Made by a program: the position numbers and the translations under genes. A DNA stretch of 35,890 nt, from IMG/VR virus record IMGVR_UViG_3300025313_000072, positions 1 through 35,890 of that record; one strand, given 5' to 3'. The stretch comes from a virus. The notes beneath the pieces were generated by a model. It was not told where the DNA came from. It made no database searches and saw nothing but the letters and a program-made list of their open reading frames with translations. Position 1 is the stretch's first letter. Each line of letters begins with the position of its first letter. Positions 2,799 to 35,890 of the stretch are shown in pieces.

Positions 2799-5530
2799 GA
2801 CCGATGTTCGGCGATCAGCTCGAGCGGATCGCGCGGCAGACGCTCTATGTCGTCAACCTTGTTCAGCTCCGGACCTACGTTGCACGCGACTCGGCGCAGA
2901 TCGAATCACAGTATTTCCTGTCCGATCGTGCAGTCACTTACGGCGCCAACGCCTACTTCCCCTTCCTACTCGAGGTCGGGGAGCTCTCTCACGCGATCGA
3001 GCACATCCAGGCACTAAGCGGGCGAACGGGGATGCGCCGCTCCTGGGGATTCTCGGCGCGCAATGGCGAGATTATCGGTGGAACAACGCTCTGGGGCGAT
3101 CTTCGCCGTCGGAAGTTTCTCACGCTCGAGGTCGCATGGGCTCAGCTCTTTCTTGATCGGCCTGGCACCGCGGCGGACTGGGCCGCACAGGTCGCCGCGA
3201 TGAGCGGCGATGAGGCAACGGTGCTCTTTCGCGGAGAGCTCGATGAGGCTCCGGGGCTCTCGGAGTATCGGCTATCGTTCTCCTTCCGCTCGCTTGATCT
3301 ATCGAGCGTCCGCTACGACTACGCCGCTGTGACGGATTACGCCGCGCCGGATGATCGCGGCAAGGCGTTCCCGCTCCCGATCTTCGGGTTCACGGGGCGC
3401 CAGATTAGAGCGACGAATATCGATGCTCGCGATTCTGCGGCGGCTCACGAATACGTTACGACGGGCATCGCCGGCACTTCGAGCCCACCCTTCCAGCTAT
3501 GGGTAAGAGGCAGGCAAGGGAAGACGATCGAGATAAGCCCGAGCACGTCCGGATTCAGCTACTCGGCGTTCACGACTCAGCTCGGTCGCACGGCACAGAA
3601 GCTCTCGATTGCGAAGGCTACGGTAGACGCCTACGCGATTTTGCTTGACGGCGAGCTGCTTACTTTTGGCGATGCACTAGAGGTATTTACGCAGATTCGA
3701 GGTACGTCCGGATTGGGCGGAGCGTTAACGAGTGTCACGGATGCGCTCATCCGTGTCATTTGTGGGTATCAGCGCGTATCTACTGACGTATACGAGACTC
3801 AAGATGGCGTGCCTAGCTTTATGGACCCGCTCGTAAACGTAATGGGTGACGGCTATTCGGTTGAATCGATCCTGGCGCATATGGCGTTTGATGGCGGCGC
3901 TAATGTGGTGATGGTCGAACGAGCGTCTGGGACCAAGATCATCCATCGCAAGCTGCGCAATCGCGCCTCGGAATGGCCCACCCCGATCGTCGAGATCCCA
4001 TACAAGCTCTGGCAAGCGCTAGAGGAAGAGGTCAAACCGTTCGCGGCGATGGCGACTGAGTTCACGTTCCTTTCACACTGGTCAGCTCTACGCGGTACGC
4101 CGGGCGATCCGAGCGCATACGCGGGCGCGACGGTGCTCGATGAGGCACACCCGAGCATTCCGGATAGCTTCGGGCCAGCCCTGATCGGAAACGATGAATA
4201 TCAGCTCGCGGTCGATTCGATCGGCCGCATACCGCATGAGCCTTTCATGTACCGCTCGCTCTTTGTGGATAACCAGCGTCGCGCCGTATCAGTAGTCCAC
4301 GCGCGAGCGATCTTTGACCGCGGTAGCCTCTTTCGCCTCGTCGGCGTTCCGCACGTCTACGCCTGGCGCCTCGAGCCCGGGGACATCATCGGCTTCACTC
4401 CGCCGTGGACCCGCACGGCCGAGCTCGCCTCTGGGATTCCGATTCGTGCTCGCGTCCTCGAGACTACATACCGCCCGCATGACGGCTTCGTCGATCTTGT
4501 CGCAGTCGAGGTCTTCGGGCTCTCGGATCAGCTCGTGGCGTTGTGGTCCGCTAAGGCTACGCTCGCATTGACGCTATCCATTCCGACTAACGCCGTCGCA
4601 ACGTGGACGGCAACTGCTACGAAATCGTTTACGCTCACCGCCTACGGCTATCTTGCGGCGAGCTGGACGGCAACCGCGACAATGGACGCTGAGCTTCCAC
4701 ACATCTCCGCCGAGTGGCTCGCGTTCGCCACGCTCTCCGGGTCGCTTACGGTCGATGCGGCCCTCGCCGCGACATGGGCGGCGACCGCGACGCTTGTAAT
4801 CGTGCCATCGAATGAAGAGTTCATCGGAGGGTTCCAGCGCGTAATCGTCGGGCAGCCGCAGGCGGATTTCGCTCATATGGCGTGCCTGGAGTTCAATGGC
4901 ACGACAGATCGGCTGGACTACGTGCTTGAAGAGCCGGCAGGCATCACGACAGACTGGAGCATTCTCGTATGGGCGAAGATCGGAGGTCCAGGAGTTGTCC
5001 GGACGATCCTTCGTATTAAGCGCGCGGCGTCTCCGCACTCGAATATCCAGATCGACGTCACGGCAGCAGACGAGCTCCGCGTGCAGCTCTGGAATACGAC
5101 TGGCACCGTGTTCAAGGATTACGAGACGACGGACTCCGCGCTAGCTTATGACCGCGGCTGGCAGCGCTGGGTTCTGATCTGCGTATCGTGGAACGGCACG
5201 ACGCTAAAGCTATACCGCAACGGGACGGAGCTTACGGCGCTATCGAAGCCGACGGACGCGGCTGGGAGTCAGGCTTACACGGATCGCTCGATCCACGTCG
5301 GCTCAAACGATGGCGCTACGTTCTTTTCGGGGCGCCTCCATTCGCTCGCGTTCTTCGATCCGTCGCTAACCGAGAACGATATCCGCTCAGCGTTCGCTCA
5401 TGGCTTCGGATCGCACCTGAATATCTTGGCGTTTGTTGACGAGTTCGCTGGTTTTCCCGCCAGATGGTGGCGCTTCGGCCGCGCCGGGCAGCTCGCGGAC
5501 GCCGAGGTTGGGACGAGGGATCTAACGTGA
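2795..5530 (+). CDS. Large tail-tip protein with C-terminal LamG-like domain
   Basis: A 911-residue protein. The open frame extends upstream inside the previous gene, but a GTG at 2795 overlapping that gene's stop is the likely start; ATG 2804 is the alternative. The first 620 residues are a large tail protein of the kind placed next in siphovirus tail tips (hub or baseplate-like). Residues about 625-715 hold five short repeats built around W-x-A-x-A-T, probably beta-strand linkers. From about residue 695 a LamG / concanavalin-like jelly-roll follows: LEFNG at its start, then WSILVWAKI, a W..V.VSWNGTTLKLYRNG strand and a final IHVGS...FSGRLHSLAFFD. This fold commonly binds glycans, so a role in host-surface binding is inferred. 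The stop overlaps the next GTG. Confidence 0.7.
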   Translation: MRPMFGDQLERIARQTLYVVNLVQLRTYVARDSAQIESQYFLSDRAVTYGANAYFPFLLEVGELSHAIEHIQALSGRTGMRRSWGFSARNGEIIGGTTLWGDLRRRKFLTLEVAWAQLFLDRPGTAADWAAQVAAMSGDEATVLFRGELDEAPGLSEYRLSFSFRSLDLSSVRYDYAAVTDYAAPDDRGKAFPLPIFGFTGRQIRATNIDARDSAAAHEYVTTGIAGTSSPPFQLWVRGRQGKTIEISPSTSGFSYSAFTTQLGRTAQKLSIAKATVDAYAILLDGELLTFGDALEVFTQIRGTSGLGGALTSVTDALIRVICGYQRVSTDVYETQDGVPSFMDPLVNVMGDGYSVESILAHMAFDGGANVVMVERASGTKIIHRKLRNRASEWPTPIVEIPYKLWQALEEEVKPFAAMATEFTFLSHWSALRGTPGDPSAYAGATVLDEAHPSIPDSFGPALIGNDEYQLAVDSIGRIPHEPFMYRSLFVDNQRRAVSVVHARAIFDRGSLFRLVGVPHVYAWRLEPGDIIGFTPPWTRTAELASGIPIRARVLETTYRPHDGFVDLVAVEVFGLSDQLVALWSAKATLALTLSIPTNAVATWTATATKSFTLTAYGYLAASWTATATMDAELPHISAEWLAFATLSGSLTVDAALAATWAATATLVIVPSNEEFIGGFQRVIVGQPQADFAHMACLEFNGTTDRLDYVLEEPAGITTDWSILVWAKIGGPGVVRTILRIKRAASPHSNIQIDVTAADELRVQLWNTTGTVFKDYETTDSALAYDRGWQRWVLICVSWNGTTLKLYRNGTELTALSKPTDAAGSQAYTDRSIHVGSNDGATFFSGRLHSLAFFDPSLTENDIRSAFAHGFGSHLNILAFVDEFAGFPARWWRFGRAGQLADAEVGTRDLT

Positions 5531-6975
5531 CGCAGCCAACGCTCCGGCTCGATTCCCCGGATGGCGCCTGGATCAGCTTTGACCCCGGGACCGAAACAGC
5601 GAAGCTCCAGAGCGCGGCCGCCGTCACGCTCGGCGTCGCGAATATCTGGACGCTCTCCGTCTGGGCCTATGTCCGGGCCGCGACCGCGGGGACGTTCTTC
5701 GCGACATTGCCCGCAACTGGGTTCCAGAATCGGATCCTGCTGCAGATAGATTCTGCCCACGGCTCGCTCTATCCGGAGGGAGAGATCGCCGTAACGCTGT
5801 CCGACAATACCGCCGGCACTCCGCTCGTACTTCGCCGCCGGCGCTACTCGACGCCCGCCATCGGGTGGATCCACCTCGCCGTGACCTGGGATGGCTCAGC
5901 GCTGCTCTTCTATCGCAATGGCCTGCTAGAGCCGCATATCTCGATCCGCGCAGAGGACACGGCGGCGATTGGCCAGATTGATCAGGCGCGCACCGTCGCA
6001 GTCGGGGGGACGCAGGGCGGCTCGCTCTTCCTCGATGGCGGCGTTCATTCAATCGCGCTCTGGAACGTCGCGCTGGGCGCGCTCGAGATCGCGGAGCTCG
6101 ATCAGGGCGGGCACGCCCTTGTGCCGCTTGAGCGCAATTTCGGCGCCTACCAGAGCGCGGCCGCGCTGAAGCATTGGTGGCGGATCGGCCAGGGTAAGGG
6201 ATCGGTCGGGGCAGGCGGCGCGCTCGTCGTCGATCGCGTCGCTTCGGGCGGGATCGATCTCGAGGGCGCGATGCAGGCGATTACGGACTACGACGACCGG
6301 ATGATCTTCTCGGGCGCTCCGATCGGCCGGTCGCTCGAGCTCGTCTCCGGAGCTCTCTATTCCGTACCTCCGACTACGCTCGGGATCGCGAATCAGTGGA
6401 CGATCGCATTTGCGCTAAAACCGATCGCCTACGAGGGCGTACTATGGAGGATCTCGAGCGGGGCGTCTAACTTTATCGAGATGTCAAGAGACGCCGCCGG
6501 AGCGATGCGCGTTCAGATCAACTCGAGCGCTGGGGCGATCCTCAAGGTGTACGACTACACCGCAGCGCTACCTAGCGGAGAGTGGCGCAGTATCGCGATC
6601 ACCTGGAGCGGCGCGGCGTTGAGCGTCTATTCGAACGCGGCCGCGTTGACTCCGATCAAGTCGACGGACGTCTCCGGCACGATGACCGATACGTCGCGCG
6701 TAATTCGCCTCGCCTACTCGGGCTCCGGCTCCGTCCGCTTCGCGTCGCTCGCGTTCTGGAATCGCGTTCTCTCTGCGGCCGAGGCGCGCGAGGTCGCGGT
6801 GGGACGCACCGCTATGAATCTTCGCGTCGACCGGTACGGCTACGCCGGCGGGGGCGAGATCGTGCACTGGTTCAAATTCGGCGAGGACGCGGGATCAATC
6901 GGAACGGATTACGCGGGCTCTGCTCCGTTCTCTTCTGGTCAGAGTCCGCTAAACTTGAGGGGGGATGCACCATGA
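5527..6975 (+). CDS. Tail protein with two LamG-like jelly-roll domains
   Basis: A 482-residue protein beginning at GTG 5527, which overlaps the stop of the previous gene; an upstream in-frame ATG (5464) lies inside that gene and is less likely. Two LamG-like domains follow each other, about residues 10-215 and 258-470. Both show the family's strand order: a WTLSVWAYV or WTIAFALKP strand, then 'W..LAVTWDGSALLFYRNG' or 'WRSIAITWSGAALSVYSN', then a closing strand ending in SIALWN or SLAFWN. They resemble the C-terminal domain of the preceding protein, so three copies lie in tandem across two genes. A carbohydrate-binding, receptor-recognition role is inferred. The stop overlaps the next ATG (ATGA). 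Confidence 0.75.
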   Translation: MTQPTLRLDSPDGAWISFDPGTETAKLQSAAAVTLGVANIWTLSVWAYVRAATAGTFFATLPATGFQNRILLQIDSAHGSLYPEGEIAVTLSDNTAGTPLVLRRRRYSTPAIGWIHLAVTWDGSALLFYRNGLLEPHISIRAEDTAAIGQIDQARTVAVGGTQGGSLFLDGGVHSIALWNVALGALEIAELDQGGHALVPLERNFGAYQSAAALKHWWRIGQGKGSVGAGGALVVDRVASGGIDLEGAMQAITDYDDRMIFSGAPIGRSLELVSGALYSVPPTTLGIANQWTIAFALKPIAYEGVLWRISSGASNFIEMSRDAAGAMRVQINSSAGAILKVYDYTAALPSGEWRSIAITWSGAALSVYSNAAALTPIKSTDVSGTMTDTSRVIRLAYSGSGSVRFASLAFWNRVLSAAEAREVAVGRTAMNLRVDRYGYAGGGEIVHWFKFGEDAGSIGTDYAGSAPFSSGQSPLNLRGDAP

Positions 6976-8965: not shown

Positions 8966-9241
8966 ATGGCACTCAGCGCAAGACAGAAGCGAGCCATCGC
9001 CAACGCATTCGATGCCACGATGGTCGGAAGCTCAGTCGAGCAACAACTGACGAAGGTCTTTGACCTGCTGCTGCGCCCCCGCGCCGAGCAGACGACCGCG
9101 ATTCGTGGGTGGCTCGCTGCGCACCGCACGCGACAGTTAGACCTACGCAGCCAACTCGTCCAGAGCAAGCTCGACAACGAGGCAAACATCGATCAGGAAG
9201 TCACCGCGGTTGATGCGGTCCTCGCAGGGAGTGACGTATGA
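8966..9241 (+). CDS. Small helical protein of unknown function
   Basis: A 91-residue protein with an AGGAG ribosome binding site overlapping the fibre stop, five bases before ATG 8966. The frame is open further upstream, but the strong site fixes this start. It is mostly charged helix (LSARQKRAIANAFDA, LTKVFDLLLRPRAEQ, RQLDLRSQLVQSKLDNEA), soluble, with no cysteine. It sits between the fibre and the lysis-type genes and overlaps the next ATG by four bases. No family recognised. Confidence 0.7.
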   Translation: MALSARQKRAIANAFDATMVGSSVEQQLTKVFDLLLRPRAEQTTAIRGWLAAHRTRQLDLRSQLVQSKLDNEANIDQEVTAVDAVLAGSDV

Positions 9242-9873
9242 CCATGCCTCGAGAATGGACCGCCTGGGAAACGCTCAGCATGCTCCTGACATGCTTCGTG
9301 CTGGCTATGGTCGCCGCGGTCTTCTCATGCACCCCCGCCTACGCCTGGGACAACTCGCCGGCCTTCACGCACCAGTTCCAGGAGCCCTCGACCTACGCGA
9401 GTGGTGAGCCACTCACGACACTGGCGAGCTGCACCCTGCTCGCGACGACGACCGGAGGCCAGTACGCGGCCCGGACTTGGCCGGCCACCGCGCCGAGCGG
9501 CGGAGGAATCCGACGCTGGACCTGGAGCGCGACCCTCGGGGGCACCACGCCGACCGGCTGCGGGCGCGCGGAAATCTACTGCTGGACGACGACGACCAGG
9601 AGCGCGAGCGCGGTGATGGAGTTCGCCTTCGCTGGTTGCGAGACCGCGCCGCCACCGGACCCCGGTCCCGAGCCGGTCCCGATCCCAGACCCGAACACGC
9701 CCCCACCCCCGCCCGACCCCTGCGCCGCCTGCCCCTGCCCGGACCCACCCGCCTGTGACTCCTGCTGCGCTCCACCACCAGCTTGCCCCACGATGACGCC
9801 GGCCGAGATCGAGCTTCGCCTGATCATCGAGGGCCTACATCGGTGGGTGCTGGAGCATGGGGGCGTGCCATGA
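9238..9873 (+). CDS. Membrane-anchored or exported Pro/Cys-rich protein
   Basis: A 211-residue protein from ATG 9238 in an ATGA overlap. Residues 13-37 are a hydrophobic export signal (LLTCFVLAMVAAVFSC) ending in AYA-W, a plausible signal-peptidase site; the VFSC cysteine is only a poor lipobox. A beta-rich middle is followed by an extreme proline run (about 128-165, PDPGPEPVPIPDP type) and a cluster of about ten cysteines (CAACPCPDPPACDSCCAPPP). The last 30 residues are a charged helix. Exported proline-rich proteins beside lysis genes can be spanin-like, but there is no C-terminal membrane segment, so the role is open. Confidence 0.65.
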   Translation: MTMPREWTAWETLSMLLTCFVLAMVAAVFSCTPAYAWDNSPAFTHQFQEPSTYASGEPLTTLASCTLLATTTGGQYAARTWPATAPSGGGIRRWTWSATLGGTTPTGCGRAEIYCWTTTTRSASAVMEFAFAGCETAPPPDPGPEPVPIPDPNTPPPPPDPCAACPCPDPPACDSCCAPPPACPTMTPAEIELRLIIEGLHRWVLEHGGVP

Positions 9874-10091: not shown

Positions 10092-10339
10092 TGAGATGGT
10101 ACCGGGGCAAGAAGCGACCCGGCGACACCACGCGCAGCGAATCCCACCTCTGGCTCGAGGGTGAGAGCTCGACCCGCTGCGGCTTCACGATCTACTACCG
10201 GCCCGAGTTCGAGGTGCTGCCTGACTCCGATGAGTTGACTTGCCGGCGCTGCCAGCGACTCTGCGAGGAACCCCCCCGTTACCGCCACGCCGAGCCTGCC
10301 CCCTACCTCGGCCGCAACTGGAGGGTGCCGCTGCTATGA
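10082..10339 (+). CDS. Small cysteine-containing protein
   Basis: An 85-residue protein. GTG 10082 has a GGAG site eight bases upstream; GTG 10091 overlaps the previous stop and is the alternative. It contains SSTRCGF and, about 25 residues later, LTCRRCQRLC, a spacing compatible with one zinc site. Short phage proteins with a lone cysteine followed by a C-x-x-C-rich segment are common, without known function. It overlaps the next gene by four bases. Confidence 0.6.
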   Translation: MPLVRWYRGKKRPGDTTRSESHLWLEGESSTRCGFTIYYRPEFEVLPDSDELTCRRCQRLCEEPPRYRHAEPAPYLGRNWRVPLL

Positions 10340-10638
10340 GCGAATCAGATGGGGCTGGAGCCTGGAAGTGGCTCGTTGGAATACTCTCGAGCATGATGCT
10401 CACGGGCCTCGCTGCCTGGTACTCCTTTGGTGGCGGCATCAATGCGCAAGAAGCACGCACGATCATGGACCGCGAATACGAGCGCCCAATCGCCGCGAAG
10501 CTCGCGACGATCGAGCGCGACCTCGAGCGCGTCCATGCCGAGCAAAAAGCCACCAGCGAGAAGGTTGCCAAGCAGCACGAAGAGACGCAGGAGAAGCTGA
10601 ACCAGATTATCCGGCAGCTACCGAGGCCCGAGCGGTGA
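10336..10638 (+). CDS. Single-span membrane protein with coiled coil (holin or spanin-like)
   Basis: A 100-residue protein from ATG 10336 in an ATGA overlap. Residues about 10-32 form one membrane helix (WKWLVGILSSMMLTGLAAWYSF). Residues 40-95 are a charged heptad-patterned coiled coil (ATIERDLERVHAEQKATSEKV). A short N-terminus, one membrane span and a coiled-coil tail directly before an endolysin fits an inner-membrane spanin (Rz-like) or an accessory holin. The topology is inferred and no family-defining residue is visible. It overlaps the endolysin start by four bases. Confidence 0.6.
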   Translation: MSESDGAGAWKWLVGILSSMMLTGLAAWYSFGGGINAQEARTIMDREYERPIAAKLATIERDLERVHAEQKATSEKVAKQHEETQEKLNQIIRQLPRPER

Positions 10639-11330
10639 GCACCCAGCGGCTCGCGATCAAGAGCGGAGAGCACGGCGCGGTGATCGTCGCCGCACACTTC
10701 GACGCGATCATGTCGCGCGTCTGGGAGGCGACTCTCTCCGAGGCTCCTCCGATGGATGGCGGAGTCGTCACTTGCACCGGCGGCATGGAGGACGCGCCGG
10801 GCCGGCTCTCGACGAGCAAGCACCCGCTCCGCCGAGCGCTCGATTTCGGCAGCAAGGGGATCAGCGCAGCGGACCTCACGGCGCGCAGGGCTGCGCTAAA
10901 TCTCTGGGCAGATCGCGTGCGTGCGCGCCTTCCCGCGGCCTATGACGTGGTGCCGAGGTTCTACATTGAGACGCCAGATCGGGATCATTTGCATCTCGAG
11001 TTCGACCACGAGCAAGGAGAGGAGATCAAGATGGACGCAGAGACACAGGCAGAGATCAGGGCTGCGGTGGCCGAGGCGATGACCGCCGGCAGCGCAGTGA
11101 AGCCGAAGCCCGCCTATGCAAGCAAGGGCGTGCTAGGCGGGCTCGGCTCATTCCTGGCCGGGCTCGCTGGGCTCGCACTCATGGCGCAGGGCGCGGACCC
11201 GGCGACCGTCGCAGAATCAACGGCGCAGATCGGGAACGGTGTCCAGGAGATCGCCCCTCACGTCGTCGCCGCCGTGGCCGGCGTGCTCGCTGTCTGGGGC
11301 CGGCTCGCGGCGGTCGCTCGCATCCGGTAG
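10635..11330 (+). CDS. M15-type endolysin fused to a holin-like membrane domain
   Basis: A 231-residue protein from GTG 10635, overlapping the previous stop. The N-terminal 130 residues carry the zinc-peptidase M15 pattern: S61-x-H63 with A68-x-D70 (SKHPLRRALD, matching SxHxxGxAxD except Arg for Gly) and the distal HLH at 118-120 (DRDHLHLEF). The expected activity is cleavage of peptidoglycan peptide cross-links. Residues 163-231 are different: two hydrophobic helices (165-187 and 207-224) flank a short loop, and the protein ends in basic residues (GRLAAVARIR), the layout of small phage holins. So enzyme and pore-like domain share one reading frame. A strong ribosome binding site and in-frame ATG at 11031 lie between them. 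Confidence 0.75.
   Translation: MSTQRLAIKSGEHGAVIVAAHFDAIMSRVWEATLSEAPPMDGGVVTCTGGMEDAPGRLSTSKHPLRRALDFGSKGISAADLTARRAALNLWADRVRARLPAAYDVVPRFYIETPDRDHLHLEFDHEQGEEIKMDAETQAEIRAAVAEAMTAGSAVKPKPAYASKGVLGGLGSFLAGLAGLALMAQGADPATVAESTAQIGNGVQEIAPHVVAAVAGVLAVWGRLAAVARIR
11014..11024 (+). promoter_or_regulatory. Internal ribosome binding site inside the endolysin gene
   Basis: AAGGAGAGGAG lies six bases before an in-frame ATG at 11031, at the boundary between the enzyme and membrane domains. It is among the strongest Shine-Dalgarno matches in the window, whereas most genes here rely on stop-start overlaps. Confidence 0.6.
11031..11330 (+). CDS. Possible independent holin from an internal start
   Basis: Initiation at ATG 11031 would give a 99-residue protein. 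Its soluble head (MDAETQAEIRAAVAEAMTAG) is followed by two membrane helices and a basic tail, which is the size and layout of a typical two-span holin. It shares frame and stop with the endolysin, so both products could be made from one gene, as in the dual-start logic known for phage lysis genes. Whether the full-length fusion, the short product or both are used cannot be told from sequence. Confidence 0.5.
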   Translation: MDAETQAEIRAAVAEAMTAGSAVKPKPAYASKGVLGGLGSFLAGLAGLALMAQGADPATVAESTAQIGNGVQEIAPHVVAAVAGVLAVWGRLAAVARIR

Positions 11331-32794: not shown

Positions 32795-35700
32795 ATGGCC
32801 CGGGACGCTCGGGCAAATATCGAAATCACCGCGACCGATCGCACGAAGGGTGCGGTCGATTCCGCGCGCAAGGGCTTTGCGGGATTCGCGGATAACCTAC
32901 GTCTAGGCGTCGTCGCCGCGGCCGGGCTCGCCGCGCTCGCGCTCGGCAAGGTCGCCTCCATATTCGGCTCGGTCGTCGAGGCGGCGGCCGAAGAAGAGCG
33001 CGCGATTGCGAAGCTCAACCAGGCGCTCTCGGATCTTGGGCCGCACGCCGATCGGGTAAGCCGCTCGCTCATAGCACACGCCGCGGCGCTCCAGCGCCAG
33101 ACGACGTTCGGCGACGAGTCCATTATCGCCGCAGAGGCGATGATCGCGTCCTTCGTCAAGGAGGAGGGCGCGATAAAGGCCGCGACCGAGGCGACGGTTG
33201 ATTTCGCAGCAGCGAAGGGGATCGACCTCGTAGGCGCGGCAGAGCTCGTCGCGAAGTCGCTCGGGTCATCGACGAACGCGCTCGCCCGCTACGGTATCCA
33301 GGTCGAGGGCGCGGTCGGATCCTCGCAGCGCCTCGAGAGCCTGACCTCTGGGATCGCGCGTCTCTTCGGTGGGCAGGCCGCGGCGCAGGCCGAGACGTTC
33401 TCTGGGGCGATCGGGCAGCTAAGGAATGCCTTCGGCGATCTACTCGAGATACTAGGCCGGGCGGTGATCGAGAACGAGGGAGTCCGGCGCACGATCGAGG
33501 CGCTAAAGGCTTCGGTCGTCGATGGCGCGCTCGCCTCTGCGGCGCTTACCGCTGGGCGGGCAATCGGGACTATGCTCACGGCGGGGGCGAGTATTGCGCA
33601 GGCGCTCGCCCCTGTAGCCGAGCGGATCATCAAGACGACGGCAGTAATCGTCGAGTTCGGCGCCGGGGTGATCCGCTTGGCGGAGGTTCTCGGCCGCACG
33701 CTCGCCAATGCTGTTGCCTCACTCATGGGAGAGCTTGGGCCGCTCGCCGCGGTGATTCTCAAGGTAGCCGAGGTGGCCAGCAAGCTCGTCGCGTCGGGCG
33801 CGGCGTCGGTCGCAAGCCTCGGCGATCTTGCGGCTTCGGCGCTCGAGGCCGAGCAATCGCTCGGCGCGAAGCTATCCGCGGCAATCGCGCGAGCAAATGG
33901 CGCGCTAGAGGATCTCGGCGGACTGACTCCCGAGATCGCCGCCGGGATGAGCTCGCTCGCCGATGCGGCCGATCGGCAGGGCGAGGCGCTGCGCAGATCC
34001 TCGGATAACGTGCAGGGCCTTTTTGACGCCTTCTCCGCTGGGCGCGCGACGACAGAGGAGGTCCGAAGCGGCCTGGCGGATCTGGCGACCGAGGCCGAGC
34101 GGGTCGCGACGCTATCCTCGGCGCTTGCCGACGCGCAGGGGGCACAGGCTAGCGGAGCGTCCGCTCTACAGTCGCAGGTCGAGGCGCTTGTCCAGGGCTT
34201 GCGTGCGCAGGGTGCCTCGAGTACGGATGCTCGCGCGGCGCTTGATGCACTTCACGAATCGGCCGACGGATTCGCTTCAGGGGTTGAGCGGATCTCGGGG
34301 GCACAGTCGGCGCAGGCGGCTGCGGCTCGGAGCGTCGCCGAGGCGCTCGCCGGCACGGATGCCGCGCTATCGAGCGCGGGGGCTTCCTCCGCGGCGTTCG
34401 ATTCGCAGCTCGACTCGTTACTCGTTACAGCTCGCGGATCGGCCGGGACGTTCGCCGAGCTCTCGGCCGAGGCCGAGAAGCAGCGCAGGGCATTCGGAGA
34501 GAACGCCGCGGCGATGCGCGCGCTAGTTGAGCAGATGGCCTCCGGTGCCGTCGGGTCACGGGAAGCGGCTGCGCGATTCCTCGAGCTCCGCGGTGCGATG
34601 ATCGGCTTGACCGGGGCCGCGGCCGATGTGGAGGCGGCGCTAGCCTCTGGCCTCTCTGCTCTCGTCGCGACGCGCGCCGCGGCATCGGGCGCTACGGACG
34701 CGATCGACCGCTACGCAACGGCCGTGCGCGGGCAGGGCGCGGCGGTACGCGCGGCGACCGAGGCGGTGATCGTATCCGTCGCCGAAACGAAGACGAGCGA
34801 GGCGTCCTATGTGGAATTGATCGCGAGCGTCGAGCAGCTTAGCTCCGCGCTCAGCGTCTTCGTCTCGAGTGGCGCGGCCGCGGCGATGTTGACGAAGGAG
34901 CAGGCGGAGCAGACCGGGGCGCTTAGCGAGGAGATGACTGACCTACTCGCCGGACTTCGTGACGGCTCAATCGGACTCGGGGAGTTCAAGGCGCGCCTCG
35001 GCCTGGCGATCCCGCTTCTCTTCGAGGCGGGCGCGGCGTCGGTCGCTATCGCGAAGGGCTTCGATGGCCTCGGAGATTCAAGCTCTCGACTGAACGCCCT
35101 ACTCTCTACGCTCGGCACCGGCGCAGACTCGCTCGCAGGGGCGCTCCGCGCGCAGGGCGAGGCGTTCGCCGGATCGGTCCAGGGCGTAGCCTCGCTCGCC
35201 GCGCAGGCGTCGGCCGGCTCCGCCCCGGTCGAGCGCCTCGGGGAATCGATCGGCTCGCTCATCGCGCAGTCTCAGGGGATGGCGAGCGCGGGCCGCTCGC
35301 TGACCGATGCGATCGCCTCGCAATCCTCTGAGGCCGGCCGGATGCGGGATTCGGTCGCGGCGCTCCGGGCCGAGATCGCGGGCGGGGTATCCGATACGGA
35401 CGTGCTTCGGGAGCGCGTGCTCGGGCTCGCGGCCGGCGCCGCGGCACTCGCCGGGTCGTCGAATCGGGCGACCGGGGCGCAGTCGGCGCAGACAGTCGGG
35501 GCGCGCAAGCTCGCCGAGATCCTCGCCGCGGTCGCCGAGGAGATCGAGAGGACCGGGACCGCATCGGGAGCGGCCGGCGCCTCGCTCGATCGAGCTACCT
35601 CGAGCGCCGAGGGCCTCGCTGGGAGCTTCGCGGCACTCGGGGCGGGGGTAGGACAGCCGGCGGCCGCGTTCGGCGATCTGATGGCAAAGCTCGAGGCGAT

Positions 35701-35890
35701 CGTCCCCTTGCTCGAGGCGGGCAAGGTCGATGAGGTCGCGGCCGCTTACGCCGCGCTTGCGCCCGAGCTAGCTGCGGCGGCCAGGGGGATCGGCGACGTC
35801 GCCGAGGCGATGCGCCGGGGGCAGGAGGCGATGGGCGGCCTATCGGGGGCGGCGACGGAGCTTCGGGCGCTGCTCCGCGAGCTCGGGGTC
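32795..35890 (+). CDS. Tail tape-measure protein, N-terminal part
   Basis: The gene opens at ATG 32795 and is still open at the window end (1,032 codons); it continues at base 3 across the circle junction to 1442, 1,464 residues in all. The start (ARANIEITATDRTKGAVDSARKGFAGFADNLRLG) is the usual amphipathic helix of tape measures. Residues 40-60 are hydrophobic (VVAAAGLAALALGKVASIFG). Residues 85-200 (LIAHAAALQRQTTFGDESIIAAEAMIASF, then LVGAAELVAKSLGSSTNALARYGI) match the conserved N-terminal domain of siphoviral tape measures. Long alanine- and serine-rich helices follow. By the rule of about 0.15 nm per residue a tail near 220 nm is expected, an estimate only. Confidence 0.92.
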   Translation, partial: MARDARANIEITATDRTKGAVDSARKGFAGFADNLRLGVVAAAGLAALALGKVASIFGSVVEAAAEEERAIAKLNQALSDLGPHADRVSRSLIAHAAALQRQTTFGDESIIAAEAMIASFVKEEGAIKAATEATVDFAAAKGIDLVGAAELVAKSLGSSTNALARYGIQVEGAVGSSQRLESLTSGIARLFGGQAAAQAETFSGAIGQLRNAFGDLLEILGRAVIENEGVRRTIEALKASVVDGALASAALTAGRAIGTMLTAGASIAQALAPVAERIIKTTAVIVEFGAGVIRLAEVLGRTLANAVASLMGELGPLAAVILKVAEVASKLVASGAASVASLGDLAASALEAEQSLGAKLSAAIARANGALEDLGGLTPEIAAGMSSLADAADRQGEALRRSSDNVQGLFDAFSAGRATTEEVRSGLADLATEAERVATLSSALADAQGAQASGASALQSQVEALVQGLRAQGASSTDARAALDALHESADGFASGVERISGAQSAQAAAARSVAEALAGTDAALSSAGASSAAFDSQLDSLLVTARGSAGTFAELSAEAEKQRRAFGENAAAMRALVEQMASGAVGSREAAARFLELRGAMIGLTGAAADVEAALASGLSALVATRAAASGATDAIDRYATAVRGQGAAVRAATEAVIVSVAETKTSEASYVELIASVEQLSSALSVFVSSGAAAAMLTKEQAEQTGALSEEMTDLLAGLRDGSIGLGEFKARLGLAIPLLFEAGAASVAIAKGFDGLGDSSSRLNALLSTLGTGADSLAGALRAQGEAFAGSVQGVASLAAQASAGSAPVERLGESIGSLIAQSQGMASAGRSLTDAIASQSSEAGRMRDSVAALRAEIAGGVSDTDVLRERVLGLAAGAAALAGSSNRATGAQSAQTVGARKLAEILAAVAEEIERTGTASGAAGASLDRATSSAEGLAGSFAALGAGVGQPAAAFGDLMAKLEAIVPLLEAGKVDEVAAAYAALAPELAAAARGIGDVAEAMRRGQEAMGGLSGAATELRALLRELGV
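35748..35890. repeat. Terminal direct repeat, right copy (circle overlap)
   Basis: This is the counterpart of bases 1-143, identical except at 35764 (C here, A at 17). Removing one copy gives a circle of about 35,747 bp and restores a continuous tape-measure gene. Confidence 0.95.

Follow-up and report, generated by a model that had tools for sequence, protein, structure and literature searches.

Endolysin and holin are normally separate, since separation allows timing. A gene in the virus record IMGVR_UViG_3300025313_000072, which was analyzed over its whole 35.9 kb (35,890 nucleotides; referred to here as the window), had been read as an endolysin continuous with a holin-like domain, with an internal start at the joint (the original prediction). 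The locus raises the question of whether endolysin and holin have been joined in one polypeptide and, if so, whether the gene gives one product or two.

The lysis gene and its peptidase half

Genes for terminase, portal, HK97-like capsid, and tape measure are recognized in the window. Both contig ends (positions 3 to 1442 and 32795 to 35890) lie inside tape-measure-like ORFs with weak PHROG tape-measure matches, which suggests that the genome is circular or permuted, almost complete, and cut within that gene. Two consecutive tail-region ORFs (2801 to 5530 and 5464 to 6975) each have a match close to the C-terminal end of PHROG 8510, a pattern resembling a domain duplication. The product of positions 9238 to 9873 starts with a hydrophobic signal and has a tail rich in Pro and Cys; it is possibly an o-spanin-like or secreted protein.

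The lysis gene (Table 1) is a single continuous frame, as had been predicted; it is uninterrupted across 231 codons from its GTG start, the two parts meet in frame and without an indel, and the neighboring genes read cleanly. Neither the whole 231-aa protein nor its halves gave a useful match to Pfam, PHROG, NCBIfam, or PDB sequences, and no close relative was detected by tblastn and pattern scans of 50,697 phage records, IMG/VR, and GTDB genomes. Relatives were also sought via the tail and terminase genes, and this yielded one identical fragment, without coverage of the lysis gene. In a 7-kb contig (L002; IMGVR_UViG_3300025289_000274), the matched stretch is the C terminus of the window terminase, identical over 97 residues, which indicates that the window virus, or one very closely related to it, occurs again.

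Table 1. Positions of features in and around the lysis gene (window coordinates)
Feature	Positions	Strand	Basis or remarks
Upstream gene (100 aa) with a single N-terminal hydrophobic helix, then a charged tail that is probably a coiled coil	10336..10638	+	
Fused lysis gene, 231 aa; M15-type peptidase and C-terminal two-helix holin domain	10635..11330	+	GTG start; 4-nt overlap with upstream stop
M15/hedgehog-type peptidase domain, ~residues 8-128	10656..11018	+	Profile E = 2.5e-6, invariant columns, model
Zinc/catalytic set of the peptidase domain: S61, H63, D70, D115 or D117, H118, H120, E122			
AAGGAGAGGAG, Shine-Dalgarno (SD)-like site, 6 nt before ATG 11031	11014..11024	+	Predicted pairing, -9.1 kcal/mol
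Possible internal ORF, 99 aa, including the whole holin domain	11031..11330	+	In-frame ATG, residue 133
Second in-frame ATG, residue 149; 14 residues before SK motif	11079..11081	+	Weaker SD, -6.2
Holin domain, residues 158-231; family K-[WY]-x-SKTIWGAL ... YGRIRATxxI	11106..11327	+	Profile match
Membrane helix 1, residues 166-184	11130..11186	+	Hydropathy, model
Membrane helix 2, residues 210-228	11262..11318	+	Hydropathy, model

The N-terminal half was compared with a profile of 29 compact M15-like proteins (25 from IMG/VR and 4 from microviruses), from which the window protein was left out. The seeds for this profile and for the holin profile were fetched with consensus queries, and both profiles consist entirely of real loci. 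In a search of ~2,250 sequences, including 2,000 shuffles, the window protein scored 24 bits (E = 2.5e-6), compared with 5 bits for the best shuffle; its alignment to the profile begins at S61 and includes the H-x-H motif. The S61-x-H63, D70, and H118-x-H120 residues are all at the positions originally given for them, and in an alignment of distinct homologues, they are in register with columns that are invariant in 86/86 M15 homologues. In the PDB, the family profile finds hedgehog/M15-fold structures (hedgehog proteins are eukaryotic relatives of the M15 peptidase fold), and individual family members match Pfam HH_signal and Peptidase_M15_3. A structure model of the fused protein from a 56-row alignment has a mean pLDDT of 77; single-sequence folding gave a poor model. 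When the model was searched against the PDB, hedgehog chains were the top coherent group, with weak E values of 0.17 to 0.5, and the top match among viral proteins was a microvirus hedgehog-like protein (E = 3.3e-3, probability 1.00). Based on profile homology and catalytic columns, with the modeled fold pointing weakly in the same direction, we conclude that residues 1 to 132 are, as proposed, a diverged M15/hedgehog-type zinc peptidase. Enzymatic activity of the predicted peptidase is likely, although not assured, because R66 replaces the Gly that 84/86 homologues have in S-x-H-x-x-G-x-A-x-D and the DGxH motif of the M15 family is missing; R66 is a second-shell residue, and the zinc ligands are intact.

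A SAR endolysin was considered and rejected, as there is no N-terminal hydrophobic segment (hydropathy maximum, 1.06 at residue 16). Two of the 86 M15 homologues (L086:524-1048 and L109:2992-3465) differ from the bare enzymes in having 42- to 43-aa amphipathic C-terminal tails, and they lack the two-helix domain. The gene at L006:13668-14816 (MW202748.1) carries the annotation "n acetylmuramidase," but its product looks like an M15-type peptidase that also has a peptidoglycan-binding-like domain; the C-terminal hydrophobic segment of this protein does not match the holin profile.

The membrane half and its stand-alone relatives

The C-terminal domain contains the two helices expected of it: both hydrophobic segments (Table 1) are modeled as helical. 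A profile of stand-alone two-helix genes matches residues 158 to 231 end to end, over the whole SK...GR.xA signature (28.5 bits, E of about 1e-7), and the best of 3,000 hydrophobicity-preserving shuffles reached about 15 bits. When this family was sought by tblastn, neither a consensus nor two individual holin sequences from M15 loci gave a match, but a query from locus L130 did. Compared directly with PHROG models, including holin families 34682 and 4712, the window protein reached no match; stand-alone members of the two-helix family do match these two PHROG holin families. Members are annotated as holin in Idiomarinaceae phage 1N2-2 and phage K1-5, where they stand beside or after the endolysin. 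The holin-like reading of the domain is not only upheld but strengthened, because homologous stand-alone genes score to PHROG holin families and adjoin endolysins. As judged from profile scores, the domain assignments of both halves are far beyond chance. These SKT-type holins resemble the window domain in being homologous two-helix proteins encoded 3' of an endolysin; they differ in that they are separate genes of ~50 to 80 aa, whereas the window domain is fused in frame to the peptidase.

There are three positive charges before helix 1 and two after helix 2, and the loop has no positive and three negative charges. Based on charge count and hydropathy, rather than a trained predictor, the fused protein is predicted to have both ends inside (N-in/C-in). 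Since the helix flanks are positive and the loop is negative, giving the topology that is also annotated for phage Siskin, the proposal of a membrane-tethered lysin is plausible.

In other phages, the two halves are found apart. An M15 gene is followed by a separate holin gene in loci L052 and L091, and possibly in L010, where the holin is partial and cut by the contig end. The same order occurs in L152 and L156, where the gene ahead of the holin-family member is M15-type and scores to PHROG endolysin families. A holin tail was found on 0/86 M15 homologues, and no genuine fusion was found among the relatives of the stand-alone holins. Long ORFs around stand-alone holins L124 and L131 were tried as fusions and rejected, being upstream in-frame extensions. 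Among the 86 M15 homologues and the holin-family loci, no second M15-holin fusion was found besides the window gene. Because the peptidase and holin families are separate neighboring genes elsewhere, the window gene is best read as an in-frame fusion. We estimate a probability of roughly 0.65 that, as sequence comparison suggests, it arose naturally by in-frame joining of an M15-type peptidoglycan endopeptidase to a two-helix holin that other phages encode immediately downstream. The fusion is known from one contig with no close relative and so rests on one assembly; the AAG at 11028 is one base from TAG, which would restore two genes. The C-terminal hairpin would most likely anchor the full-length product of such a fusion in the inner membrane and keep the enzyme on the cytoplasmic side, until assembly of the holin helices into a lesion allowed the tethered enzyme to reach the wall.

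Comparison with known lysis systems

The statement that no named family has this arrangement is too strong. The endolysins of Siskin and Enc34 (Casjensviridae) also consist of an enzyme domain and a C-terminal two-helix membrane domain, with a one-TM protein encoded upstream (PMC6498227, PMC8943055). The window gene shares with them the N-terminal enzyme, the two C-terminal helices, and the small one-TM protein upstream, and the N-in/C-in topology predicted for its product is the one annotated for Siskin. The components differ, however: the enzyme is PHA02564 lysozyme-like in Siskin and Enc34 but M15 in the window gene, their membrane domains have no detectable similarity to the holin profile, and no strong internal SD was found in their endolysins.

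The upstream gene at 10336 to 10638 occupies the position of Siskin's annotated class III holin gene, and its product has weak Rz-like spanin matches (E = 0.018 and 0.022). Taken together, these observations suggest that the product could be a second membrane component, and it is a candidate i-spanin or second holin. Enc34 ORF38 (L174:120-464) has itself been described in different ways: its record says Rz-like spanin, PMC8943055 says lambda-holin-like, and the Siskin counterpart is annotated as a class III holin.

Endolysin genes with two products are also known. In-frame internal starts are predicted in about half of Gram-positive phage endolysins, versus 15% in portal controls, a false-positive rate to be borne in mind (PMC9430671). 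Two-polypeptide endolysins (PMC9430671; CTP1L, PMC4777826; Ms6 LysA, PMC3111421) have an in-frame start with its own ribosome-binding site near a domain border, as is possible in the window gene; their C-terminal product is the wall-binding or enzymatic part, whereas that of the window gene would be a membrane holin. In the papers searched, we found no endolysin gene reported to contain a holin within its reading frame. Lambda S and the class II dual-start holins make two products of one frame, both of them holins that differ by a few residues; in the window gene, too, timing could be set by a pair of products from one frame, if both are made.

The ribosome site at the joint

The site AAGGAGAGGAG is present, as predicted, six bases ahead of the in-frame ATG at 11031, which is residue 133 and would start a 99-residue product. 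The main plus-strand genes of the window contain 94 in-frame internal ATGs, and none has stronger predicted anti-SD pairing than this one. The accompanying claim that most starts in this genome lack a strong ribosome site did not hold: 10 of 24 tested gene starts, including those of the major capsid, portal, and tape measure, pair more strongly than -9.1 kcal/mol (one of the 24 positions, 8965, was set off-frame and is not among the 10), and so the contrast drawn between 11031 and the genome's starts was wrong. The lysin's own GTG start has weak predicted pairing (-5.9). In high-GC related loci, ~2% of internal ATGs and GTGs are as strong as the 11031 site, which translates to a chance of ~4% among the linker's two ATGs and ~8% among its four ATG/GTG codons. 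Of the synonymous codings of the peptide HEQGEEIK, 43% yield a site as strong, and mRNA structure at the joint is unremarkable (z = 0.41). The site stands out modestly from chance expectation, and its position exactly between modules of separate ancestry adds to its credibility, since a fusion by stop-codon loss would keep the holin's start. The ATG at 11031 is 30 residues from the SK motif and the clearest stand-alone holin starts are ~6 to 17 residues before it; M149 (ATG 11079) is nearer than M133 to stand-alone holin length.

We give about even odds to the reading in which the SD-like site arose by coincidence or persists as a silent relic and only the full-length protein is made, in the manner of Siskin and Enc34, with the 10336-to-10638 protein as the holin or pinholin. 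The parallel with Siskin (a one-TM protein and then an enzyme with two C-terminal helices) is consistent with this, as are the full-length action of known C-terminally anchored lysins (PMC7143992, PMC8879335, PMC8943055) and the ease with which SD-like strings arise from purine-rich Glu, Gly, and Lys codons. However, unlike the membrane domains of Siskin and Enc34, the C-terminal domain of the window protein is a member of a family that scores to holins.

A free 99-residue holin from the putative internal start is possible, if tentative, and the same holds for a dual-product gene in which the ratio of tethered lysin to free holin sets lysis timing. That 11031 has the strongest SD of the 94 internal ATGs, that it lies at the junction of modules that are separate genes elsewhere, that 99 residues is near the length of stand-alone holins (roughly 50 to 80 aa), and that in-frame internal starts with C-terminal products are documented for endolysins (PMC9430671, PMC3111421, PMC4777826) all argue for two products. 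Against this are the ~2% background of equally strong internal ATGs, the 43% of synonymous codings that match the site, the lack of special mRNA structure, the lysins of Siskin and Enc34 without such a site, and the fact that no close homologue was found that could show conservation of the SD and ATG. If the retained ribosome site and ATG do also yield a free holin, it could co-assemble with the tethered form and set the timing. One frame giving a tethered M15 endolysin and a free holin identical to its anchor, with co-assembly timing the passage of the enzyme, would be a single-gene lysis clock, an idea that we regard as somewhat speculative.

It is unlikely that the hairpin is a mere membrane anchor or export signal, without holin activity, of a holin-independent endolysin such as M4Lys or LysAP. 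Those endolysins, like the window gene product, have a C-terminal membrane segment, and they lyse via it (PMC7143992, PMC8879335); but it is a single helix joined to other enzyme types, while the window protein has two helices with homology to stand-alone holins rather than to an anchor. It is very improbable that a sequencing or assembly error joined a normal tandem M15 endolysin and holin, since, although separate tandem genes are the rule in relatives and several codons are one substitution from a stop, the joint is in frame without an indel, the adjoining genes read cleanly, and the 30-residue ATG-to-SK distance exceeds that of stand-alone genes, as expected of a linker.

The window gene is thus solid as a fusion and a candidate for making two products. 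Endolysins with a C-terminal membrane domain of two helices are already known, as are in-frame internal starts in Gram-positive phage endolysins; the pairing of peptidase with holin, and its combination with an internal start, would be new. The fusion is a compact natural case in which to ask whether lysis timing needs a free holin and whether a holin assembles with an enzyme on its N terminus. It also bears on a possible origin of anchored endolysins of the Siskin/Enc34 type, from tandem endolysin and holin genes by loss of a stop codon.
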